From positions 1-46,087 of the IMG/VR virus record IMGVR_UViG_3300030105_001129: a DNA stretch of 46,087 nt; one strand, written 5' to 3'. The translations under genes were made by a program, and so were the position numbers. The DNA is from a virus. Shown piece by piece: positions 29,777 to 45,838 of the stretch (its first letter is position 1; every line of letters begins with the position of its first letter). The notes below the pieces were generated by a model. It was not told the DNA's origin. It did no database searches and saw only the letters and a list, made by a program, of their open reading frames with translations.

Positions 29777-29816
29777 AAGAACCCCTTATTAGTAATAACT
29801 AACGACCCCTTAGCTA

Positions 29817-29907
29817 CATATGTATAACATTTGTTATAGTTTAATAATTAATCATAATATTAAATAATATAGTTATCTAATATAATTTAACAAATGTATA
29901 ACATATG
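29817..29907. repeat. Long imperfect inverted repeat around an AT-rich core
   Basis: The left arm CATATGTATAACATTTGTTA (29817-29836) and the right arm TAACAAATGTATAACATATG (29888-29907) pair except for a four-base internal block (ATAA against TATA). The 51 bases between them contain almost no G or C. It could be a cruciform, a binding site for a dimeric regulator, or an unwinding element of an origin. Confidence 0.7.
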
Positions 29908-29993
29908 TTCTGTCTCTGTCTATTGATACATAGGTACTAAATCTTTGTTGTCAAGGGGGGAGACTTGCGATTAATGTGAATAAGACTAATAGT

Positions 29994-30009
29994 GTGATAA
30001 ATATGTCAC
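29994..30009. promoter_or_regulatory. Operator-like inverted repeat, copy 1
   Basis: GTGATAAATATGTCAC is a near-perfect dyad (GTGAYA-N4-TGTCAC). A second copy lies 30 bp to the right and a third at 35975-35990, where both arms are perfect. The flanking AATAGT before each of the first two is also repeated. The N8 distance between TGTGA and TCAC is too long for a CRP site. Confidence 0.6.
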
Positions 30010-30023
30010 GGTTAACCAATAGT

Positions 30024-30039
30024 GTGATAAATATGTCAC
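30024..30039. promoter_or_regulatory. Operator-like inverted repeat, copy 2
   Basis: Identical to the copy at 29994, exactly 30 bp away, so the two sites face the same side of the helix (close to three turns). Such spacing favours cooperative binding of a regulator. Both lie 34-84 bases to the left of the minus-strand TATAAT at 30078-30073, so a bound protein could block transcription toward the 63-residue gene and the terminase. Confidence 0.6.
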
Positions 30040-30149
30040 AGATTGCTTGAGGGCTGTAGGTTATTTTTTTATATTATAGATAAGGGTGTAATCGGGGCCG
30101 GAGCGCCCTACTACCGTATAAGTAGCAGGGACCCATCTGGATACAACTT

Positions 30150-30287
30150 TTAGTAGTACAACTCTGAGTAGCAAGCGATATGCAATGTTACAACTATAAG
30201 GTGCAACACCATAACGGTAGCTAGTGCACCCCCAATTATCGCTAAAGTTGTAATGGCCTTTTCAACCTCACGTTTAACAGTTCTCAT
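30150..30287 (-). CDS. Very small membrane protein in the control region
   Basis: 45 residues with a strong ribosome site (AAGGGAGAATATT before ATG). A charged start (MRTVKREVEKA) is followed by one transmembrane helix of about 30 hydrophobic residues (TTLAIIGGALATVMVLHLIVVTLHIA) and a short end, CYSELYY. Its coding sequence contains two TACAAC-like units of the array found at 31051-31541 (30193-30208, and 30240-30256 in reverse), so coding and regulatory functions may overlap. No family recognised. Confidence 0.6.
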   Translation of the reverse strand: MRTVKREVEKAITTLAIIGGALATVMVLHLIVVTLHIACYSELYY

Positions 30288-30344
30288 AATATTCTCCCTT
30301 AGGTTGTGGGATGCCAGCCAGCGCCAGCACCCCTTTAGGTTGTA

Positions 30345-30806
30345 TTAAGCGCCTTTGACTAGCGCAGCAGCTGCCGAGCTAATAGGCGGTGTAATAGTAG
30401 CGGCAGGACGACGGAAGTTTGACGCCATGCCTAGAGTTGTCTTAGCCACAACCTTAGCGGAACCAGCTTCCTTGTACTTTGAAACCTTGTTCAGAGCAGC
30501 CTTAGCGTTATCAGAACCATTGGCCTGCAAATAGGCATGGCAGGCGCTGCGAGTCTTAACCGCATAGTCCTGATGACCGCCATTTGTAAACTCTCGGGAA
30601 AACGTGTCCCAAACCTTGCCAACAGTAAGAGAAACCATCGGCAGCTCTTGATCTTCAAAGCAATCAACAGCAGCCTCTACGGATGACAGTATGGCGGCAA
30701 ACAGGGCGCTGCGATAGCCCTCTTGCAGGTACGCCATGTATGGTGCTGTGTCGGCTGTCTTATCGGCTGTTTCGAGGTGTGCTAGTGTGTCATTAAAAGT
30801 AAACAT
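30345..30806 (-). CDS. Uncharacterised 153-residue protein of the control region
   Basis: The N-terminal two thirds are helical (FNDTLAHLETADKT, YRSALFAAILSSVEAAVDCFED, VWDTFSREFTNGGHQDYAVKTRSACHAYLQ). The end is Lys/Ala-rich and basic, then Pro/Ala-rich (FRRPAATITPPISSAAAAL). A basic helical protein beside a repeat array is a candidate DNA-binding protein, for instance one that acts on the repeats, but no helix-turn-helix or other motif is certain. AAAGG lies about ten bases before the ATG and a possible promoter (30871-30899) lies upstream. Confidence 0.65.
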   Translation of the reverse strand: MFTFNDTLAHLETADKTADTAPYMAYLQEGYRSALFAAILSSVEAAVDCFEDQELPMVSLTVGKVWDTFSREFTNGGHQDYAVKTRSACHAYLQANGSDNAKAALNKVSKYKEAGSAKVVAKTTLGMASNFRRPAATITPPISSAAAALVKGA

Positions 30807-30870: not shown

Positions 30871-30899
30871 GTAATGACAGCAGTGTGACATGGCGTCAA
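30871..30899 (-). promoter_or_regulatory. Putative promoter for the 153-residue gene
   Basis: Minus-strand TTGACG (30899-30894) and CATTAC (30876-30871) with a 17-base spacer. The -35 is good and the -10 is weak (three of six). A start near 30864 would leave a 58-base leader that contains a small GGCT/AGCC hairpin at about 30837-30853. Confidence 0.35.
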
Positions 30900-31050: not shown

Positions 31051-31541
31051 TACAACTAAAAGGCGAATCCAGAAAACCCGAAAGAATTACAACTTATAGT
31101 TGAGTAAATCCTTAGAATACAACTTTAAGGCGATCTGAGGCCAATACAACCTATAGTTGAACCAATACAACTTTAAGGCGAGCTGAGGCCAATACAACCT
31201 TAGGTTGAACCAATACAACTTTAAGGCGATACAACCTATAGTTGAATAAATCCTCAGAATACAACTTTAAGGCGATACAACCTCAGGTTGAGTAAATCCT
31301 AGAAATACAACTTTAAGGCGATACAACCTATAGTTGAATAAATTCTAGAAATGCAACTTTAAGGCGATACAACCTATAGTTGAACCAATACAACTTTAAG
31401 GCGATACAACCTCAGGTTGAACCAATACAACTTTAAGGCGATACAACCTATAGTTGAATTCGTACAACTTAAAGGCGATACAACTTAAAGGTGATTTAGA
31501 ACGATTCTAATCAACCTCAGGGTGATACAACCTATAGGCGA
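31051..31541 (+). repeat. Array of 21 sixteen-base units of two alternating types
   Basis: Type A is TACAACTTTAAGGCGA; type B is TACAACCTATAGTTGA, or the forms with CTCAGGTTGA or CTTAGGTTGA. Units start at 31051 A, 31088 B, 31118 A, 31145 B, 31166 A, 31193 B, 31214 A, 31230 B, 31260 A, 31276 B, 31306 A, 31322 B, 31352 A, 31368 B, 31389 A, 31405 B, 31426 A, 31442 B, 31463 A, 31479 A, and 31526 (hybrid, B head and A tail). From 31214 to 31478 each A is joined directly to B, and B to the next A by a 5- or 14-base linker, giving periods of 37 or 46. B units are palindromic (CAACCTCAGGTTG). An iteron-like origin or regulator array is likely; it is not a CRISPR. Confidence 0.9.
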
Positions 31542-31571
31542 TTTAGAACGATTCTAATCAACCTCAGGGTG
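31493..31571 (+). repeat. Two perfect 32-bp direct repeats, each with a TTAGAA-CGA-TTCTAA palindrome
   Basis: Copies at 31493-31524 and 31540-31571 are identical, 47 bp apart, and separated by the hybrid array unit. Each starts GATTTAGAACGATTCTAATC and ends in CAACCTCAGGGTG, which is related to the B units. The dyads are at 31496-31510 and 31543-31557. This looks like a two-site operator or the anchor end of an origin. Confidence 0.85.
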
Positions 31572-31600
31572 TGCGGCTATTTGGCCGACTATTAGTAATA

Positions 31601-31805
31601 CCCCCACCATGGGAAATAGCCCCACCATGGGAAATGGTCTTAATATGAGTATTTGCTGCGCAAGCGGAGTAATAGTAAGACTCATAGTAATACTAATAGC
31701 CCCCACCGTGGGAAATGGTTTTAATCATAGTATTACCCTTTGCTAAGCAAAAATTTAATAGTCAGACTAATAGTAATACTAATAGCCCCCACCGTGGGAA
31801 ATGCC
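31601..31805 (+). repeat. CC(A/G)TGGGAAAT elements, left cluster (four copies, ~83-bp tandem unit)
   Basis: Copies at 31601-31617, 31619-31637, 31699-31718 and 31785-31805 share CCCCACC(A/G)TGGGAAAT. The last three are followed by a conserved stretch, TTAAT then ATAGTAT or GAGTAT, and are 80-86 bp apart. The sequence between copies also repeats: a TTTGCT/AGCAAA hairpin, then AATAGT-N-AGACT and ATAGTAATACTAATAG. The core CCCACCGTGGG is a dyad. Five further copies are at 35931-36058. Confidence 0.8.
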
Positions 31806-32045: not shown

Positions 32046-32074
32046 TTGACATCTTAGCTGATTTGTGCTAATTT
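32046..32074 (+). promoter_or_regulatory. Early sigma70 promoter of the right arm
   Basis: TTGACA (32046-32051), a 17-base spacer, and TAATTT (32069-32074). The -35 and spacing are ideal. It lies 50 bases before the first plus-strand gene and reads into the zinc-ribbon and peptidase genes. A dyad just downstream (32082-32094) sits at the expected start point. Confidence 0.7.
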
Positions 32075-32123: not shown

Positions 32124-32300
32124 ATGACTAGAGAACAGGCACTAAACAGAGACTTAGTAAGAGTTTACCTCAGTGAAAAAGCTGGGCCAAAGCGTTACCT
32201 CGGCTTGAAGACTCGTGATCAGGTCGATGCTCTGCAAAAGAGCTATTACAAGACGTCTACGGTGGTTTGGTTTCAAACCGCCTACACAACTGCAGGATAA
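32124..32300 (+). CDS. Small early protein, unknown function
   Basis: 58 residues from ATG 32124 (MTREQALNRDLVRVYLSEKAG), with AGGA nine bases upstream. The product is basic with a helix-strand pattern (KRYLGLKTRDQVDALQKSYYKTSTVVWFQ). It is the first gene behind the early promoter, where phages usually place host-takeover proteins. No family recognised. Confidence 0.62.
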   Translation: MTREQALNRDLVRVYLSEKAGPKRYLGLKTRDQVDALQKSYYKTSTVVWFQTAYTTAG

Positions 32301-32329: not shown

Positions 32330-34030
32330 ATGAACTTATCTGAACAAATGGGTATTACTTTTCCCCCAGTCATTTACAGGGACTTCTCTGCTGGGCTGGC
32401 GAAATTCCCTAGCTACTGGTGCCGCTCTGCATCAGCACACGGCAACGAATACACAGAGGAAGCTCTGGAAATTGCCCGTAGGCACAGAAGTGCTGACAGC
32501 CTTGGATTATCTAATAGGACAGCGATATTTTATATTAATGCTGTCTGTGCCATAGCTGACGCCGAGAGCAATTCAATAATGCAAGAAATGCAAGAGGTGC
32601 CCTATGTCGATAATAAGGGGGAGCCTTTATCCTACCACGATCTTACCATCGTAAAGCGCAATAATAGGGTGCTTCATGAGCACTTTGCTAATAACCGGAA
32701 GATCATAGAACGGGTGGTCAATGTTATGCACCCCAACTATGACGCTGATCATTGCGGTTTTTCTGTCCTTTGGATAGACGAGAAAGGCAGGGACGCAGGC
32801 AGGGACGGCAGGCTTATGCTTCGTTCTGGAAAAGCACTAAGAAAGATGTTCCCCTGCTTAACAGATAAAGAAGTGGAAAACATTAATGACGCCTACCGTC
32901 AAGAGTTTTCTGTAAAGGGTTTAACTCTTAAACAGGGTGCTGGTCGTCAACACTTTGCCCACGCCTACAGTCATACTATTGGGAAACTTGAAAACCCCTC
33001 GACAGAGTGGCACAGGAAGAACTTAGGTAATAGTTGTATGCGGTACAGTTTTGATAGACTGGATTGTCACCCAACCGAGGCCTACGGCTCTGGGGAATTT
33101 ACTATGTTCTGGACAGAGGAAGCCTCCGGAAAAATAGCCAGCCGTTGCGTCGTATGGCAGCCGCCACAACATGCAGGTAATCCAGAGTATTGGGTAGCGG
33201 CCCCAGTGTATGGCGTATGTGATGCTTCTATCGATCTAATACAGAATCACCTGTCTGGCTTAGGGTGTGGTGTTTATAGAAACTCTTCCAGTTGGGCTGG
33301 TGCTAAGCTGCTATGTATCAAAAATGGTAGTGAAACTTCTTTTGTCGGCCCATATCTTGACGTGGACCCTAAAGCTCTGACTCATGGTGATGAGGGTTTC
33401 TTCATAGTAGAGTCTGGCGGTGCTGTAAGAGCTACTACGTACCAAGGGGTATTATTTGAGCAAGAGCTTCATGAGTGTACTAGTTGTGGCGATGAGGTAA
33501 CAGATGACGACGTAATGCACTGGCAGGACGATGTGTTATGCTCAAGCTGCTATGATGAAAATACCTTTAATTGTTGCCAGTGTGGCGACACAGAAAGCTC
33601 TGATGAGTCGATCACCATAAACACCACCTACGGTCAAGAAATGTGGTGTACTAATTGTCAAGATAACCACGCCGTCCTAATAGACAGCGGCGATTGGTGG
33701 CAAGAGACAGACACAGAGGTAACAAATTGTGGCATTGTTATTAGTCAGGACGAACTAGATGACGGCCAGTTCTTTATTAGCAATTGGAATGGCGAAATCT
33801 ATAAGAACGATAAGGCCTGTCGTATAGATAATGGTGACATTGTTTCTCTTGTTGAAATACTAAGACATAACAAGAGGCATAAAGAGGCAGAGTATGAGCC
33901 TCATTTAGCCTTTATTAAAGACGACGACGAGCTTCCCTATCAATTTAATTCAGAGACAGATGAATGGACACAGGTAATACCAGATGACAATGAAACCTCT
34001 AATACTGAAAGCGACGTGGCGTATGTATAA
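32330..34030 (+). CDS. Large early protein with C-terminal zinc ribbons
   Basis: 566 residues from ATG 32330, which has AAAAGGAAACAAC in front. Residues 1-370 are mixed alpha/beta with conserved-looking His, Trp and Cys (RHRSADSLGLSNRTAIFY, HPNYDADHCGFSVLW, NLGNSCMRYSFDRLDCHPTEAYGSGEF) and no known enzyme motif. From about residue 383 come paired cysteines: CTSCGDE, CSSCYDE, CCQCGDTES, CTNCQDN, which should bind two zinc ions, then an acidic end. The zinc part resembles LIM- or RING-like treble clefs. It might bind nucleic acid or a host protein. Translation is linked to the peptidase gene by an 8-base overlap. Confidence 0.75.
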   Translation: MNLSEQMGITFPPVIYRDFSAGLAKFPSYWCRSASAHGNEYTEEALEIARRHRSADSLGLSNRTAIFYINAVCAIADAESNSIMQEMQEVPYVDNKGEPLSYHDLTIVKRNNRVLHEHFANNRKIIERVVNVMHPNYDADHCGFSVLWIDEKGRDAGRDGRLMLRSGKALRKMFPCLTDKEVENINDAYRQEFSVKGLTLKQGAGRQHFAHAYSHTIGKLENPSTEWHRKNLGNSCMRYSFDRLDCHPTEAYGSGEFTMFWTEEASGKIASRCVVWQPPQHAGNPEYWVAAPVYGVCDASIDLIQNHLSGLGCGVYRNSSSWAGAKLLCIKNGSETSFVGPYLDVDPKALTHGDEGFFIVESGGAVRATTYQGVLFEQELHECTSCGDEVTDDDVMHWQDDVLCSSCYDENTFNCCQCGDTESSDESITINTTYGQEMWCTNCQDNHAVLIDSGDWWQETDTEVTNCGIVISQDELDDGQFFISNWNGEIYKNDKACRIDNGDIVSLVEILRHNKRHKEAEYEPHLAFIKDDDELPYQFNSETDEWTQVIPDDNETSNTESDVAYV

Positions 34031-35042
34031 ACTAATAGACATGTTGGCTTATTGCCGTCCTGAGGGGTCTACTACCCAGCAAGAGTTCTGCGATAAATAC
34101 TTAAAACCTGTATTTGGTAGTCCTGACGGCGCTGGCAATTACATAAGAGTTGTAGGTCACGCACCAACTATCTGCTTTGCGTCACACCATGACACAGTTC
34201 ATAAAGCAGACGGTATGCAGGATGTAATACTAAAGGGCGAGACGTTGCAGCTGCCGCCTATGAGCACATCATCTTGCTTAGGCGCAGACTGTACAACTGG
34301 CGTATGGCTTCAATTAGAAATGATCAGAGCAGGTATCGAGGGTGTTTATGTATGCCATGCCGCTGAAGAGGTAGGCTGCATTGGCTCTAGAGCCGTGGTC
34401 GACCGAAACCCCAGATGGCTGCAGAGATTAGAAGCAGTAATATCTTTTGACCGTAAAGGTACGGAAAGTGTTATTACGCATCAGATGGGTTTAAGGACCG
34501 CCAGCGATGAATTTGCGGTTTCTCTTGCCGATATTCTTAAGCTACCTATGAGGCCAGACGATACTGGCAGCTTTACTGACAGTAATGAGTATTCTGGGGT
34601 TGTCGCAGAGTGTACAAACTTGTCAGTTGGTTATTACAGACAGCACTCTAAGGCCGAGACACAGGACGCCTATTTCGTGGAAAGGCTTAGAGACGCCTTA
34701 ATAGCGGCAGACTGGTCGCAGATTAGTATAAGCCGTGACCCTACGGTGACAGAGTACAAGCCTCAACAGTACGCTGCTGATTGGCTATTAGGTGACATGC
34801 ATGGTCAGCCTCCGTCTCTTTCACCAGTAAATCGTTATGGTGACCGTTTCACCGCATCCGGTAATAGACGCTATAATGAACAAGAGGATTGCGACGACCT
34901 GTCCAAGCTTGTATTTGATAATGCCATGGCGGTCGCTGACTGGCTGGTAGGCAATAATATAACTTATGAAGACCTCATAGACGAACTGGACCTAGAAGAC
35001 GCCAGAGATAATTCGAGAGGTTTTGGGCATATGTATTCTTAA
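34023..35042 (+). CDS. Di-zinc peptidase of M28/M20/M42 type
   Basis: 339 residues from ATG 34023 (MYKLIDMLAYCRPEGS); ATG 33984 would add 13 residues. All seven metal and catalytic positions of this clan can be placed: His55 and Asp57 in SHHDTVH, Asp89 in GADCTTG, the Glu115-Glu116 pair in HAAEEVGC, Asp143 in SFDRKG, and His208 in YRQHSK. Such enzymes cut N-terminal residues or short amide bonds with two zinc ions in the cytoplasm or periplasm. No signal peptide is visible, so it should act inside the cell. The last 100 residues are extra and acidic. A strong terminator follows. Confidence 0.82.
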   Translation: MYKLIDMLAYCRPEGSTTQQEFCDKYLKPVFGSPDGAGNYIRVVGHAPTICFASHHDTVHKADGMQDVILKGETLQLPPMSTSSCLGADCTTGVWLQLEMIRAGIEGVYVCHAAEEVGCIGSRAVVDRNPRWLQRLEAVISFDRKGTESVITHQMGLRTASDEFAVSLADILKLPMRPDDTGSFTDSNEYSGVVAECTNLSVGYYRQHSKAETQDAYFVERLRDALIAADWSQISISRDPTVTEYKPQQYAADWLLGDMHGQPPSLSPVNRYGDRFTASGNRRYNEQEDCDDLSKLVFDNAMAVADWLVGNNITYEDLIDELDLEDARDNSRGFGHMYS

Positions 35043-35930: not shown

Positions 35931-36058
35931 GCCCCCCGTGGGAATTTTGCCGTACCCCTCCGTGGGAATTTTGTGTGACATATTTGTCACTCCTCCGTGG
36001 GAATTTGGCCTACGTGGGAATTAAAACCATATTTAACTTGTACCCTGCGTGGGAATTA
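35931..36058 (+). repeat. CGTGGGAATT elements, right cluster (five copies)
   Basis: CGTGGGAATT occurs within 35931-35950, 35954-35973, 35990-36008, 36009-36022 and 36042-36058, the first three preceded by C-rich CCCCC or CTCC. They share CCGTGGGAA with the left cluster at 31601-31805, but the tail is AATT in place of AAAT. They precede the gene block starting at 36098 and ThyX. Binding sites for a phage regulator, or activator elements of phage promoters, are possible. Confidence 0.78.
35975..35990. promoter_or_regulatory. Operator-like inverted repeat, copy 3
   Basis: GTGACATATTTGTCAC, a perfect dyad of GTGACA around TATT, matches the two sites at 29994 and 30024. It sits between the second and third CGTGGGAATT elements, so the two kinds of site probably belong to one control circuit. 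Confidence 0.6.
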
Positions 36059-37171: not shown

Positions 37172-37289
37172 CTAAAGGGTACTTAGAGTAGATGGAATTT
37201 TTTATATTTTTGTCAAGGGGCAGAATTAAATAAATTTTAGTCTTGTATCTTTGTTGCCATATGGTAGGTGTTACCCAAAGGAGAACGAC

Positions 37290-38876
37290 ATGACTGAAAT
37301 ACCACATCAACCCTGCCCCTTTGTAGACTGCGGTTCATCTGATGCCTTTGCTTACAACAAAGAGGGTTACGGAAAGTGCCATAGCTGCGGACAGGGTTAC
37401 CCTGCCAACAGGTCACATGCTACGTTTGATTGGGCTGAAGATAAGTACCCTAAAAAGGAGAGAAATGATATGACTACCGACACTATCCTGACTACAAAAA
37501 CCATACCCACTACTGGAGATGGCAAGTACGTTGAAATGAGGGGTATCAAAGCCTCTGTCATGGAAGACTACGGTGTAATGACCTACGACAACACACAGGA
37601 GTACAAGTACCCCAGTGGTGGCGTCAAGGTTCGTAATCTTAAAGAGAAAGGCTTCTGGGCAAAGGGCGGATTCAAGGGCGACGAGTTGTTTGGCATGAAC
37701 TTCTTCACCGCAGGTTCCTCTAAGATGCTGACCATCACTGAGGGAGAGCTGGATGCCCTCTCTGTGGCGCAGATGCTTAAGTCTGGCACATACTCTAACC
37801 CTGTTGTGTCGTTGCCCTCTGCTACCCCCTCAAAGAAGTTGTGGGAGAACTGTAGTGAGTGGATCAATAGCTTCGAGAAAATCATTATCAGTGTTGACGG
37901 TGATGAAGCCGGAAATGCTATTGCCACTAAGATATCTAAGCTGTTTCCTAACAAAACCTACCGAGTTTCTCATGACAAGTACAAAGACGCTAACGAGTTT
38001 CTACAGGCAGGGGCTGGACAAGAGTTTAAGTCTGCTTGGTGGAACGCTAAGAAGTATGTCCCTGACAATGTTCTTAACACTTCTGAGCAGTTCCTTAAGT
38101 TGTTTAGAGAGACTCCCGACCATCAGTTTGTGCCTACAGGTATACAATCCCTTGACGACAAAATCATGGGACTCATGCAAGGTCACTTTACCGTTATCAA
38201 AGCCCCTACTGGCATTGGTAAAACAGAAGTGATGCGGCTGTTAGAGTACAACTTGATACAACGTAACGTACCCTTTGCCAGTTGGCACCTAGAAGAGACA
38301 AAGCTTAGGAGCCTCTTAGGTTTGGTTAGCTACTCTCTAGGCATGAACGTAACCCGAAGGGACTTGATAGACACACAGGGTGCCACTGCTCAAGTAGAAG
38401 CAGCTATTGTCAAGCTTGCGGAGAACGAGAATATCTATCAGTTCTATTTGGGTGACGGACAAGGGACCGAGGAGTTGTGCGACCAGATACGATACTTCCG
38501 TGAAGCCTGTGGCTGTAGGTATGTATTCTTTGAGCCTATCCAAGACGTAGTGTCTGGCAGGTCAGAGAGTTCTAAAGAGGAGTTGCTATCAGACCTGTCA
38601 GTTAGGCTTAGTAAGCTTGCCGCAGAACTTAACGTGGGTATCGTTACTATCGCACACACTAATGACGATGGTGACCCTAAATACTGTAAAATGATTGGAC
38701 AAAGGGCTTCCGTTATTATAGACCTTAGTCGTGACAGAGAGGCTGATGATGAGCAAGAGAGGAACACCACTACCTTAAAGGTAGAGAAGAACCGCCCGTG
38801 TAGTGAAGAGGGTTACGCTGGGTCACTTCGATTTAACATGGACACATTTACTTTACAGGAGCTAGACTATGGATAG
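37290..38876 (+). CDS. DNA primase-helicase, T7 gp4-like
   Basis: 528 residues from ATG 37290, with AAAGGAGAACGAC in front; an upstream TTG-type extension is not supported. Zinc-binding primase domain: Cys9, Cys14, Cys30, Cys33. Toprim part: TITEGELDAL with Glu151, and ISVDGDEAG with Asp203 and Asp205. Helicase: Walker A APTGIGKT at 305-312, then ASWHLEE, the Walker B-like YVFFEPIQD, and IVTIAHTN. The hexameric helicase unwinds the fork while the primase makes RNA primers for the family A polymerase encoded two genes downstream. The IR gap upstream may hold its promoter. Confidence 0.94.
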   Translation: MTEIPHQPCPFVDCGSSDAFAYNKEGYGKCHSCGQGYPANRSHATFDWAEDKYPKKERNDMTTDTILTTKTIPTTGDGKYVEMRGIKASVMEDYGVMTYDNTQEYKYPSGGVKVRNLKEKGFWAKGGFKGDELFGMNFFTAGSSKMLTITEGELDALSVAQMLKSGTYSNPVVSLPSATPSKKLWENCSEWINSFEKIIISVDGDEAGNAIATKISKLFPNKTYRVSHDKYKDANEFLQAGAGQEFKSAWWNAKKYVPDNVLNTSEQFLKLFRETPDHQFVPTGIQSLDDKIMGLMQGHFTVIKAPTGIGKTEVMRLLEYNLIQRNVPFASWHLEETKLRSLLGLVSYSLGMNVTRRDLIDTQGATAQVEAAIVKLAENENIYQFYLGDGQGTEELCDQIRYFREACGCRYVFFEPIQDVVSGRSESSKEELLSDLSVRLSKLAAELNVGIVTIAHTNDDGDPKYCKMIGQRASVIIDLSRDREADDEQERNTTTLKVEKNRPCSEEGYAGSLRFNMDTFTLQELDYG

Positions 38877-39126: not shown

Positions 39127-39530
39127 GTAAGGCCTGTAAAAAATGTGGGGACACTAAAGACGTAACCGAGTTCCATGAAGCTAAGACCAACGCTGACCGC
39201 CTTTCGTATGTATGTAAAGCATGCGTCGCCACTGCGCTTAAGATTAAGCATAACCTTAATAGGGGGTTTGCCTCCCTGCAACCTAAGAGCTGCGAGTGCT
39301 GCGGTACGTCCGTGCGTAGTTTAGGGGTAGATCACGACCATAAGACTGGTTTATTTAGAGGGTTTATCTGCCAGTCCTGCAACGTAACCATTGGACTTAG
39401 TGGAGACACTTACGAAGGTTTACTGGCTTCAGATAAAGACGTTATGTACCTAGACTACCTAGCCGTTGCAGCATGGCGCCAAGGTACGACTGTGTTTATT
39501 AAAGGGAGGAGCACACATGCCCGTATTTGA
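39123..39530 (+). CDS. Recombination endonuclease VII (HNH)
   Basis: 135 residues with the endonuclease VII layout: N-terminal Cys5-x2-Cys8 and Cys31-x2-Cys34, then Cys57/Cys60, the core VDHDHKTGLFRG (69-80) holding the catalytic His-Asp-His, and CQSCN (83-87) closing the zinc site. T4 gp49 of this family cuts Holliday junctions and branched DNA before packaging. It overlaps the polymerase gene start by 14 bases. Confidence 0.92.
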   Translation: MSKACKKCGDTKDVTEFHEAKTNADRLSYVCKACVATALKIKHNLNRGFASLQPKSCECCGTSVRSLGVDHDHKTGLFRGFICQSCNVTIGLSGDTYEGLLASDKDVMYLDYLAVAAWRQGTTVFIKGRSTHARI

Positions 39531-41373
39531 CATAGAGACTGATGGTTTCTTAGATGTTTTGACTAAGATCCACGTAGTTAGTTACCAGACAGACACTATG
39601 TCTGAGCCTAAGTCTATCTTTGACTACGACGAAATGCGAGAGTTCTTCCTGTCTCAGGACACCCTAGTGGGCCACTTTATTACTGGCTTCGATATCCCTG
39701 CAGTGGAAAAGGTCTTAGGTATTAAGATCACTGCTAGAGTTATTGATACGTTAGCGGTAAGTTGGTATCTTACACCTGAGCGTGGCAGTCACGGACTGGC
39801 CTCTTACGGTGAAGACTTCGGAGTACCTAAGCCTGTTGTGACAGATTGGGAAGGCTTGTCTCAAGAAGAGTACAGCCACCGTTGCCAAGAGGACGTTAAG
39901 ATAAACGTAAGGTTGTGGAAACAGCAGGACAGTAAGCTGGACCGACTGTACCTTAATGACCACGCTAAGTTTAGGTTCTTAGACTACCTAAAGACCAAAA
40001 TGCTGACAGTCAAAGAGCAGTCAGACAATGGTTGGGGGGTGGACGTAGCTAAGGCTAACAGCTTACTTAACCTTTGGGAGGCAGCAAAGGCAGTTAAAGT
40101 AGAGCAGTTGACTAGTGTCATGCCAGACAGGTTGCATTGGGTAATGAAGCACAAGCCAGCATTAGAGAGGATGACCCTTAAGAATGGCCTACCTTCTGCC
40201 GCCGCAACCACTTGGTTTGCGTTGCTTAAAGAGGCTAAGTACCCTCTGACTACAGAGAGCTTACGGGTGGTACAGAAGACTACAGTAGCTAACCCTAACT
40301 CCCCTGATCAGGTTAAGGATTGGCTGTTCTCTATGGGTTGGTCGCCCTGTACGTTTAACTTTATTAAGGAAGGCACGGGTAATAATGTAGTAGAAAGAAA
40401 AATACCTCAAATCCGTAAGGATGGAGAGTTGTGCAACAGCGTTAAGAGGCTCATAGATGTTAACAAAGACGTTGGCGTATTAGATGGCCTTACTGTGTTG
40501 TCGCATAGGATTGGAATAGTTAAGGCCTTTATCTCTTGCGAGAGAGACGGTAAGTTAAAGGCTACAATCAGTGGCCTCACTAATACCTTTAGGTTTAAGC
40601 ACTCTAGGCCGCTGGTTAATCTCCCCTCTGTTGATAAGCCCTACGGAGAAGACATTCGTAGTTGTCTCATAGCAACTGGTGGCATGACCTTATGTGGCGC
40701 TGATATGGTTAGCTTAGAGGACACTACCAAGCGTCACTACATGCAACCACTTGACCCTGACTACGTTGAGGAAATGTCTAGGGAAGGCTTCGACCCTCAC
40801 CTTGACCTTGCTAAGTTTGCAGGGGCAGTGACCCAAGAGGATATTGATAAGCACAATTCTGGCGAGGTTAGCTTGAAGGCTTTGCGGAAGAACTACAAGG
40901 TAGTCAACTACAGTGCTACATACGGTGTAGGAGCCTCTAAGCTTGCCCGTGAGACAGGCCTAACACAAGCAGCAGCGTCTAACCTACTGCAAGCCTTCTG
41001 GCAGAGAAACTGGGCAGTTCAAGAGGTCGCTAACAAAGCTAGGGTTAGGGAGCTGTTAGGCAAATCTTGGATACAAAACCCCGTGTCAAAGTTTTGGCAT
41101 GTACTGAGGAGTGAGAAGGACAGGTTTAGTACACTAAATCAGAGTACAGGTGTCTACTGCTTTGACGTATGGGTGCAGCGTGTAAGGGCGCATGGTGCAA
41201 GGCTAGTAGGCCAGTTCCATGACGAAGTTATCGTTGAGTTACCTAAAGGTGGCGAAGAGCTTATGGCTGGGGTACTTAAAGATTGCATGGTTAAAACTAA
41301 CGGGGAGGTTAAACTTAATATCCCATTAGGCATTGACTATTCTTTTGGTAAAAACTATGCAGAAATACACTAA
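39517..41373 (+). CDS. DNA polymerase, family A (T7 gp5-like)
   Basis: 618 residues from ATG 39517, which has AAAGGGAGGAGC in front. The 3'-5' exonuclease has Exo I VFDIETDG (Asp5, Glu7), GHFITGFD and an Exo III-like YSHRCQEDVKIN. Polymerase: motif A is GADMVSLEDTTKRHYM, unusual against D-x-S-x-I-E but retaining the Asp and Glu; motif B is RKNYKVVNYSATYG; motif C is FHDEVIVE at 567-574. In motif B the residue at the Pol I 762 position is tyrosine, the form linked to rapid, virulent phages. It is the replicative polymerase and may use host thioredoxin or none. Confidence 0.94.
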   Translation: MPVFDIETDGFLDVLTKIHVVSYQTDTMSEPKSIFDYDEMREFFLSQDTLVGHFITGFDIPAVEKVLGIKITARVIDTLAVSWYLTPERGSHGLASYGEDFGVPKPVVTDWEGLSQEEYSHRCQEDVKINVRLWKQQDSKLDRLYLNDHAKFRFLDYLKTKMLTVKEQSDNGWGVDVAKANSLLNLWEAAKAVKVEQLTSVMPDRLHWVMKHKPALERMTLKNGLPSAAATTWFALLKEAKYPLTTESLRVVQKTTVANPNSPDQVKDWLFSMGWSPCTFNFIKEGTGNNVVERKIPQIRKDGELCNSVKRLIDVNKDVGVLDGLTVLSHRIGIVKAFISCERDGKLKATISGLTNTFRFKHSRPLVNLPSVDKPYGEDIRSCLIATGGMTLCGADMVSLEDTTKRHYMQPLDPDYVEEMSREGFDPHLDLAKFAGAVTQEDIDKHNSGEVSLKALRKNYKVVNYSATYGVGASKLARETGLTQAAASNLLQAFWQRNWAVQEVANKARVRELLGKSWIQNPVSKFWHVLRSEKDRFSTLNQSTGVYCFDVWVQRVRAHGARLVGQFHDEVIVELPKGGEELMAGVLKDCMVKTNGEVKLNIPLGIDYSFGKNYAEIH

Positions 41374-41409: not shown

Positions 41410-41439
41410 ATTAACACAAACACAAACGGAGTGTATAAG

Positions 41440-41943
41440 ATGAGTAAGAAAGCAAGAGTTTTAGTCATGGAAGGCTATGTAGAGTACGCACGGGTATTCA
41501 AAGAGAACATGGACAGCAACCCCGACTTCCATCCCACTGGTCAGTTTAATATGAACTTTTACCCTAAGACTGAAGAGGATCTTGAGCTGTTTTGGGAAGC
41601 TGGTGTAGAGAAAGCTTTTCGGGGTAACTCCCGACTTAAAGACCCTCGCTCTGGAGACGGGTACGGGATTGGACAGTACATTCGCCTAAAGCGTGACAAT
41701 GTAAACCCCGTTGCAGAGGCTCTGGGCGGCGCACCGCACGTAGTTAACTGGCTTGGGGACGCTGATGCACTCAGCAAGGGTGCTGGCTGGGCTTTCTCTG
41801 ACGGCGAGCTGGGTAACGGTACTGAGGTTCGAGTTAAGGTTACTGTATACGGAGAGGGTGACCGTACAGGACACCGCTTAGATAAGATTGGCGTCGTAAA
41901 CCTAGTTGAGTACGCCTCAACGCTTACTGCGGATGGCTTTTAA
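41440..41943 (+). CDS. Putative single-stranded DNA binding protein (T7 gp2.5-like)
   Basis: 167 residues from ATG 41440, with GGAG eight bases upstream. Charged start (MSKKARVLVMEGYVEYARVFKEN), then an OB-fold-like beta pattern, FNMNFYPKTEEDLELFW, IRLKRDN, and the conserved-looking close GNGTEVRVKVTVYGEGDRTGHRLDKIGVVNLVEY. This resembles gp2.5-type SSBs of T7-like phages, which coat ssDNA and interact with polymerase and helicase. Its acidic tail is short, which is a difference. Identification by layout and position between polymerase and exonuclease. Confidence 0.66.
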   Translation: MSKKARVLVMEGYVEYARVFKENMDSNPDFHPTGQFNMNFYPKTEEDLELFWEAGVEKAFRGNSRLKDPRSGDGYGIGQYIRLKRDNVNPVAEALGGAPHVVNWLGDADALSKGAGWAFSDGELGNGTEVRVKVTVYGEGDRTGHRLDKIGVVNLVEYASTLTADGF

Positions 41944-43934: not shown

Positions 43935-45838
43935 ATAGTAACTACCTGCCTACGGACTATCAAACTTTTATTGGTACTAGTCGGTATGCCCGTTGGATCG
44001 AAACTGAAGGCCGACGAGAGACTTGGGGCGAGACCGTTGAGCGTTACCTAGAGAATATTGTGATCCCTAAGAGTACTCTTTCTACCACAGAGCTTAGTGA
44101 TATTCGTAACGCTATCTTAGGACTAGAGGTTATGCCCAGTATGAGGTCTCTTATGACTGCTGGTTTAGCTGCTTCCCGTGATAACACCTGTATGTATAAT
44201 TGTAGTTACCTACCTGTTGACGACCCTAAGGCCTTTGACGAAGCTATGTTTATCCTCCTGTGTGGGACAGGCGTAGGCTTTAGTGTAGAGCGACAGTCTA
44301 TCAGTAAGCTTCCTGATGTCCCTACTTTGTATAACAGTGACACTACCGTTGCTATTAAGGATAGTAAGGAAGGCTGGGCTAAGGGTCTTCGTAAAGTCCT
44401 AGCCCTCTTGTGGGCAGGAGAGATTCCTACGTGGGACTTAAGCAAGGTACGACCTGCAGGGGCACGACTCAAGACCTTCGGAGGTAGGGCATCAGGGCCA
44501 GCCCCTTTGGTTGACTTGTTTAACTTTGCTATAACAACCTTCCGAGCGGCTCAGGGTCGTAAGCTAAATAGCCTAGAGTGTCACGACCTTATGTGTAAGA
44601 TTGGCGAGGTTGTGGTAGTAGGTGGTGTCCGTCGTAGTGCTATGATTAGTTTGTCAAACCTATCTGATGATCGTATGCGTCATGCTAAGTCGGGTAACTG
44701 GTGGGAGAACGCAGGTCATAGAGCCTTAGCTAACAACTCAGTGGCTTACACAGAGAAGCCAGACAGTATTGCGTTCATGCGTGAGTGGACAGCCCTTATG
44801 GAAAGTGGGAGTGGTGAACGTGGAGTCTTCAACAGAGAAGCGTCAGTCAAACAAGCTGCAAAAAATGGCCGTAGAGAGTCTTGGTATGAGTTCGGAACAA
44901 ACCCCTGCTCGGAAATCATTTTACGCCCGAATCAGTTCTGCAATCTTTCGGAAGTTGTTATCCGTGCAACAGACAGTCTGGAAGACATTGCAGCAAAAGT
45001 CCGCATTGCGACTATACTTGGAACCATTCAGTCAACCTACACCTATTTTCCATACTTGCGTAAGGTGTGGAACACCAACACAGAGGCAGAAAGATTGCTC
45101 GGTGTGTCACTCACGGGGATAATGGATAACAAACTTATGACAACAGCTAACAATGGGTTGGCTGAACAATTGGAGTATTTAAAAGATGTTGCGATACTTA
45201 CAAATGCTGAGTGGGCTAAACGCCTTTCTATCCCTGTTGCTACTGCTATCACTTGCGTTAAGCCAAGTGGCACTGTCTCCCAGCTTGTTAATAGTGCTAG
45301 TGGCATCCATGCTAGGCATAGCCCTTATTACATTCGTACTGTCAGGGGAGATAACAAAGACCCTCTCACACAGTTTATGAAAGACCAAGGGGTTCCTAAC
45401 GAGCCTGACGTAATGAAGCCAGCCGCTACCACAGTCTTTAGCTTCCCTATGCAGTCCCCTTTAGGAGCCGTACATACTGCAGATATGTCTGCCATTGAGC
45501 AACTAGATATGTGGCTGATGTATCAAAGGAACTGGTGTGAACATAAGCCTAGCGTTACAATTAACGTCAAGGCTGAAGAGTGGATTGAAGTAGGTGCTTT
45601 TGTTTACAAGCACTTTGACGAAATGTCTGGTGTATCCTTCTTACCCTTTGATGAGCACACTTATCAACAGGCGCCTTATCAAGAGTGTACTAAGGATGAG
45701 TACTATAAAATGCTAGACGCTTCTCCGCAAAAACTTGATTGGGAAGCCTTTAATAACTACGAAAAGGAGGATAACACTAGCGGTTCACAGACAATGGCAT
45801 GTAGTGGTGACGTATGTGAAATGGTAGACTTAACATGA
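43931..45838 (+). CDS. Class II (adenosylcobalamin-dependent) ribonucleotide reductase
   Basis: 635 residues from ATG 43931, which has AGAGGAAAAGAGAA in front. It reduces ribonucleoside triphosphates to deoxy forms with B12. Visible: Cys87 and Cys91 in DNTCMYNCSYLP, the GTGVGFSVE loop at 112-120, the catalytic N-P-C-S-E at 324-328 (Asn, radical Cys, Glu), FCNLSEV at 336-342, and a C-terminal redox pair Cys624 and Cys629. The layout is of the monomeric Lactobacillus-type enzyme. No second subunit (nrdB) is needed or found. It requires the host's B12. Confidence 0.93.
   Translation: MNSNYLPTDYQTFIGTSRYARWIETEGRRETWGETVERYLENIVIPKSTLSTTELSDIRNAILGLEVMPSMRSLMTAGLAASRDNTCMYNCSYLPVDDPKAFDEAMFILLCGTGVGFSVERQSISKLPDVPTLYNSDTTVAIKDSKEGWAKGLRKVLALLWAGEIPTWDLSKVRPAGARLKTFGGRASGPAPLVDLFNFAITTFRAAQGRKLNSLECHDLMCKIGEVVVVGGVRRSAMISLSNLSDDRMRHAKSGNWWENAGHRALANNSVAYTEKPDSIAFMREWTALMESGSGERGVFNREASVKQAAKNGRRESWYEFGTNPCSEIILRPNQFCNLSEVVIRATDSLEDIAAKVRIATILGTIQSTYTYFPYLRKVWNTNTEAERLLGVSLTGIMDNKLMTTANNGLAEQLEYLKDVAILTNAEWAKRLSIPVATAITCVKPSGTVSQLVNSASGIHARHSPYYIRTVRGDNKDPLTQFMKDQGVPNEPDVMKPAATTVFSFPMQSPLGAVHTADMSAIEQLDMWLMYQRNWCEHKPSVTINVKAEEWIEVGAFVYKHFDEMSGVSFLPFDEHTYQQAPYQECTKDEYYKMLDASPQKLDWEAFNNYEKEDNTSGSQTMACSGDVCEMVDLT

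Follow-up and report, generated by a model that had tools for sequence, protein, structure and literature searches.

The closest published parallel to the locus described here is the replicon of the PLE satellite, whose semi-palindromic iterons are swapped jointly with the binding domain of RepA, under attack by the origin-directed nuclease Odn (PMC8263062). Like the PLE iterons, the repeats of the present array are semi-palindromic, lie in non-coding DNA, and are exchanged between near-identical genomes. However, PLE has about three iterons of 30 bp and a RepA binding domain that varies with them, whereas the array comprises about 21 sites of two alternating types, A and B, and no covarying protein was found for it.

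A second comparison is offered by phage T7, in which a row of short imperfect repeats lies between one genome end and host-type early promoters. The window, i.e., the whole stretch of 46,087 nucleotides that was analyzed, resembles T7 in having a row of short repeats ahead of the early promoter candidate, possibly likewise beside a genome end, and in having a T7-like replisome. The T7 repeats are, however, CCTAAAG 7-mers spaced mostly by 13 bases, which neither form dyads nor alternate as A and B, and the units of the array are not of this kind. The cobaviruses (Zobellviridae, Cobavirinae) share a related replisome (primases 52-54% identical to that of the window) and the divergent gene layout, but they lack a TACAAC array and differ in their packaging and structural genes. 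The closest cultured relative is Roseobacter phage CRP-6, with 68% identity of the primase and 83% identity of the terminase large subunit (TerL). In the equivalent slot it also contains an array that is followed by CCCTCCGATGGAAAA repeats, but its array is built from TTGCARRAATGTCAC units, and it encodes a sigma-70-like protein, which was not found in the window.

The alternating array and its surroundings

The window represents a whole IMG/VR record, which is classed as linear and has no end repeats. The leftward genes encode portal, terminase, major head protein, tape measure, and central tail fibre J, while the rightward operon encodes ThyX, primase-helicase, family A polymerase, exonuclease, endonuclease VII, RusA, MazG, and an RNR of the class II type. 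The CRP-6-like terminase and replisome and the matching divergent gene order place the phage in the CRP-6-type group; the next-best matches of the terminase large subunit are found in siphophages. Every unassigned open reading frame of the window appears too small to encode a T7-type RNA polymerase, and searches of the window for tRNAs and for Rfam families yielded no match. A 170-aa protein (41431-41943) is conserved in cobaviruses and has no profile match; its position and sequence suggest that it is possibly a single-strand binding protein similar to T7 gp2.5.

All 21 TACAAC 16-mers of the initial annotation were recovered (Table 1). The units reach 20-25 bits with a weight matrix built from those same units, whereas the top score was 10.7 bits when the whole 46-kb sequence of the window was shuffled three times; the array is thus far above chance. 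The strongest sites outside of the array have 13-16 bits and are located at 30142, 30189, 30293, and 30329 (30142-30344), around a leftward open reading frame of 45 aa. When two degenerate sites that prolong the array and two copies of a palindrome are counted, its end shifts to about 31572. The GC content of the array is 37%, compared to 44% for the genome, so that it is not strongly AT-rich.

The internal order turned out to be somewhat looser than initially described. Strict alternation of A and B applies to 31051-31463. Beyond this come a GGTGA variant, which adjoins the final canonical A (31463) without a linker, and then a degenerate site and a GGCGA unit. Direct joining of A to B was observed for six of nine A-to-B pairs, but not for the first three, which have linkers of 21 or 11 bases. 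The rarer CTCAGG/CTTAGG/TTATA variants of B are indeed strongly palindromic (10-12 of 15 positions), but the commonest B (CTATA) has only the CAAC...GTTG arms and scores 8 of 15, the same as the common A, so that the proposed difference between the types does not extend to it. The last unit had been taken for a hybrid and a trace of recombination. This interpretation was dropped, because the sequence of this unit, TACAACCTATAGGCGA, serves as a regular A form in the sister phages L108, L109, and L111, as does TACAACCTATGGGCGA in L116-L118. That the array is not a CRISPR could be verified: instead of unique spacers it has linkers of 0-31 bases that are repeated themselves, and no cas match was found among the window proteins scanned.

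Table 1. Locations of the array, neighboring elements, and selected genes. Coordinates refer to the window unless another genome or contig is named.
Feature	Location	Strand	Remarks
153-aa protein	30345..30806	-	First leftward gene; all-helical, fast evolving, does not track array type
Leftward host-type promoter candidate	30871..30899	-	TTGACG-N17-CATTAC, before leftward operon; relatives have a TTGAC box at the equivalent place
A/B array	31051..31541	+	21 alternating 16-mers, TACAAC-N5-GGCGA (A) and TACAAC-N5-GTTGA (B)
Palindromes	31496..31557	.	Two, 15 bp, TTAGAACGATTCTAA: 31496-31510, 31543-31557
Degenerate sites	31510..31572	+	Two, ATCAACCTCAGGGTGA/T (31510, 31557)
Constant repeats	31602..31802	+	CCCCACC[AG]TGGGAAAT, four copies: 31602, 31620, 31701, 31787
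Rightward early promoter candidate	32046..32074	+	TTGACA-N17-TAATTT; form in relatives TTGACT-N17-TATGTT
58-aa protein	32124..32300	+	First early gene
566-aa early protein	32330..34030	+	Several CxxC pairs in a C-terminal part rich in Cys; acidic tail; matches no family
T7-type primase-helicase	37251..38876	+	Early operon
Family A DNA polymerase	39466..41373	+
Sigma-70-like gene	L064:5169-5738
Sigma-70-like gene	L061:7991-8560
Sigma-70-like gene	L102:3586-4101		CRP-6 gp14
GANTC-rich slot	CRP-6 44332-44927
GANTC-rich slot	L084:1690-2215
GANTC-rich slot	L066:2850-3580
GANTC-rich slot	L048:2290-2998

The array resides in a stretch of non-coding DNA that separates the first leftward gene from the first early gene, with the leftward structural genes on one side and the rightward early/replication operon on the other. 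Two conserved promoter-like sites, called solely from consensus and conservation, point outward. The array is upstream of both, at about 150 bp and about 500 bp from the two -35 boxes, and overlaps with neither; a promoter reading into the array was not found. The constant repeats are placed between the array and the early promoter, and some form of them (of the CCCC-CC-GTGG-AAAT kind) is present downstream of every array type seen. The GC skew, which had been suggested as a check, flips its sign at the array. However, the gene strand flips there too, and because of this coincidence the skew switch is not independent evidence.

Several additional elements were observed. A very AT-rich stretch with inverted repeats (AACATATGTTCTGTC) extends over about 29800-29910 (29830-29900 when delimited more narrowly), about 1.1 kb from the array and beyond the small gene after terS. 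It is partly conserved in L013 and represents a possible packaging or unwinding site. At 29988-30041 two direct copies of AATAGTGTGATAAATATGTCAC resemble the TTGCARRAATGTCAC units of the CRP-6 array as well as single copies flanking the L064 array. A second repeat cluster, CC[CT]CCGTGGGAATTTT, is found in the early region before thyX (35932-36022), where relatives contain about six copies of the CC[CT]CCGTGGGAATTTT type with a 19-bp period. GANTC (CcrM) sites are scarce over the whole genomes of CRP-6, ICBM2, and CRP-4 as well as over the window; they are about 4- to 9-fold more frequent than expected from base composition in the slots of CRP-6, L084, L066, and L048, and only mildly so in the window.

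Same and different arrays in related phages

Relatives were gathered from IMG/VR by scanning for exact matches and by searching with the primase and the 566-aa protein. About nine further non-identical TACAAC arrays were found at the equivalent position. The distance from A to B is 16 bp and that from B to A mostly about 31 bp (30 or 21 bp in the window); the A tail is GGCGA, while the B tail is variable (GTTGA, GTTGC, GGTTA, CGGTA, GCTGT). The B-A linkers of the relatives are filled by TTAGAATCGTTCTAA, the same element as the TTAGAACGATTCTAA palindrome. The copy number can change by a whole period: in the near-identical contig L019 (98.9%) the array is shorter by exactly one 46-bp unit. The TACAAC consensus and its spacing persist even where neighboring proteins are only 20-45% identical, and this constancy of the units points to a sequence-specific site under constraint. 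Absence from close relatives with the same gene order had been named as an argument against a role of the array; it is present in about ten close relatives, and two others contain a different array instead. Most other lone 16-mer matches in IMG/VR (L010, L011, L014-L018, L020, L021) were discarded as isolated chance hits on unrelated contigs. Blastn searches with the array against cultured phages and plasmids, and with the L123 array against cultured phages, yielded no match, and a primase search of genome contigs for prophage or host relatives yielded none.

The main new result is that the slot of the array is hypervariable. L123/L155 can be aligned with the TACAAC phage L114/L154 over a left flank of 3.7 kb with 88.5% identity and over the right flanks with 86.8% and 86.2% identity, and the alignment is broken only by 491 bp versus 341 bp. 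In this slot L123 repeats a CTGAGTAAATCTGTCAGG-type unit 19 times, in steps of 25 and 26 bp. The copies are of two alternating types, have the dyad ACCTGA-N9-TCAGGT, and are unrelated to TACAAC. Similarly, the terminase of L153 is 98% identical to that of the TACAAC phage L111, and its slot contains three dyad arrays, TTCACTCAGAGTGAA, TTGACCGTTTGGTCAA, and TATACTATCGTTAGTATA, with pair periods of 36-38 bp. The replacement of the repeat type between near-identical backbones (L123 versus L114, L153 versus L111), as in the swappable PLE replicons, suggests that the array is an exchangeable module. The TATACTATCGTTAGTATA array recurs in another clade (L064, L074, L181-L184, L186, L188), in which the fully covered primases show about 71-72% identity. 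In L184 the array meets a TTCACTCACAGG unit at a junction identical to that of L153. Array and junction are thus common to two clades, which indicates that the cassettes move.

L048, L066, and L084 contain GAACGAATC units in the slot; together with those of L123, L153, and CRP-6, four array types other than TACAAC were found there. Most relatives with a readable slot have an array of some type, and higher-order pair periods are found in most array types. L161, which has an unrelated primase, contains at 1190-1740 about 43 copies of the 8-bp repeat CGTCCGCC, followed by CCTACCGTGGGAAAT constant repeats, before the primase gene. A literature search for hypervariable phage origin arrays retrieved nothing that matched.

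Candidate binding proteins and alternative readings

The 153-residue protein had been put forward as a binding partner of the array. It was dropped, because its sequence does not follow the array type and its model matched no DNA-binding fold. The homologs of L123 and L109 are 84% identical though their arrays differ, and those of L109 and the window only 23% though both phages have TACAAC arrays; a fold search of the PDB with the all-helical model (pLDDT 74) retrieved no match. The 566-aa early protein was also rejected, because the L123 and L114 proteins are 85% identical at the N-terminus despite different arrays; the L123 N-terminus is 46-49% identical to those of L111 and L109 (L114, L111, and L109 all being TACAAC phages). 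Its model, with a pLDDT of 39, was too poor for use. Neither was an HTH match found in the proteins adjoining the array, nor an initiator gene that covaries with the repeats among the two flanking genes, the comparison being confined to genes near the slot by the length of the contigs of this clade with other array types (6-7 kb). The replisome proteins change gradually across the relatives, whereas the arrays change abruptly.

In most relatives outside the clade of the window a sigma-70-like protein (Pfam regions 2 and 4) is encoded just upstream of the primase. In pairs such as L064/L077 region 2 is shared and region 4 is different, as if promoter specificity had been exchanged. As searches of the window clade detected no such protein, it was dropped as an explanation of the window array. 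An M28-type peptidase gene (33984-35042) neighbors the gene of the 566-aa protein and is conserved at this place in the clade that has the array.

Several alternatives have to be considered. The array might be a multi-site operator or silencer through which a phage or host regulator controls the divergent pair of early and late promoters, and it would then take no direct part in replication. Its location between two conserved outward promoter-like sites would fit, the units are dyads with the size of dimer operators, and wholesale operator change is known from the immunity regions of temperate phages. Nevertheless, we consider this unlikely, given the distances of about 150 and 500 bp to the -35 boxes without any overlap, the lack of an HTH match in the adjacent proteins, and the lack of a comparable site upstream of other operons, the sole strong outside sites being those at 30142-30344.

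Somewhat more unlikely is a function as DNA decoy, according to which the arrays titrate DNA-binding proteins of the host, a prophage, or a plasmid, and array type follows the host rather than the phage. High copy numbers, the three unrelated dyad arrays in L153, the presence of one array in different phage clades, and the lack of correspondence between array type and either of the flanking phage proteins would all be expected. On the other hand, phages with possibly different hosts retain the TACAAC consensus. Moreover, a search of 84,980 bacterial and archaeal genomes for the shared 18-mer TATACTATCGTTAGTATA revealed only six exact matches, which is about chance level, and none in Rhodobacterales. 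This argues mildly against a decoy, and a host operator for the motif shared by L153 and L064 was dropped for the same reason. The literature search for phage operator decoys revealed nothing matching.

It is improbable that the array is a terminal element for concatemer processing or packaging, i.e., a counterpart of the end-proximal short-repeat arrays of T7. In cobaviruses this divergent junction contains direct terminal repeats (ICBM2 annotation; PMC6775973), in CRP-4 the equivalent region contains CTTAAAGG repeats, and the CCTAAAG row of T7 lies between the left end and the early promoters. However, the terminase large subunit of the window is of the CRP-6 type with siphophages next best, and therefore the cobavirus ends cannot be transferred to it, and the T7 7-mers, spaced mostly by 13 bases, are not A/B dyads. 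We regard it as improbable, too, that the array is satellite-like DNA, which tandem duplication would have produced without any function in a gap that tolerates it, and in which alternation would result from a duplicated two-unit block. The difference of one whole period between near-identical contigs and the pair periods of most array types are in accordance with this, but the 16-mer consensus and spacing kept beside neighbors of 20-45% identity point to constraint, and most relatives with a readable slot have an array of some type. A set of transcribed hairpins or a CRISPR-like RNA decoy is hardly credible, although single-strand folding is better than that of shuffled sequences (z -5.1 for the window, -9.3 for the L123 array), because the array is upstream of both conserved outward promoter-like sites with no promoter facing into it, Rfam has no match, and repeated inverted sequences yield such z-scores without any RNA role.

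A putative exchangeable origin or early-control cassette

Taken together, our tentative explanation, with a probability of roughly 0.42, is that the array represents one allele of a non-coding cassette that can be exchanged and consists of semi-palindromic putative protein-binding sites, and that this cassette is part of the origin or early-control region of CRP-6-type marine phages. The position of the array suggests a function in one of these two processes. The earlier proposal of a replication origin or control platform would fit where the array lies, the replication operon nearby, and the switch of the skew; the skew is confounded as described above, and origin activity is putative. As in iteron origins, multiple ordered short repeats (21 sites) lie upstream of an early/replication operon, but a cognate initiator gene varying with the repeats was not among the two flanking genes. 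To our knowledge, T7-type replisomes do not need an iteron-bound initiator in known cases, which counts against an origin.

From these features we infer protein binding, an origin role, and a selective reason for the exchange, which may be connected as follows. Rows of paired A-B sites would be filled by a dimeric DNA-binding protein, and the array in this state would open or organize the DNA beside the early promoter and the constant CCCCACCGTGGGAAAT repeats. There the helicase-primase and polymerase, both T7-like, could then start. Recombination would replace the sequence type of the array wholesale, and the plausible gain would be the escape from a recognizer, such as an origin-directed nuclease, a satellite, or a resident repressor, or the fit to a different host protein. 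A more general version is possible, though doubtful: the slot beside the early promoter of lytic marine phages may hold alternating-dyad cassettes that are exchanged between clades independently of the neighboring genes tested and serve as host-matched binding modules, either as decoys or as host-recruited origins, under arms-race selection.

With the array as part of an exchangeable origin or early-control cassette, the slot would be a concrete candidate for the site at which T7-like replisomes start replication without a phage RNA polymerase, a question for which no published answer was found for marine phages. The natural set of alleles makes swaps feasible in cultured relatives such as CRP-6. 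The wholesale replacement of a multi-copy array amid near-identical neighbors is unusual, and it suggests that there is strong selection on what recognizes the array.
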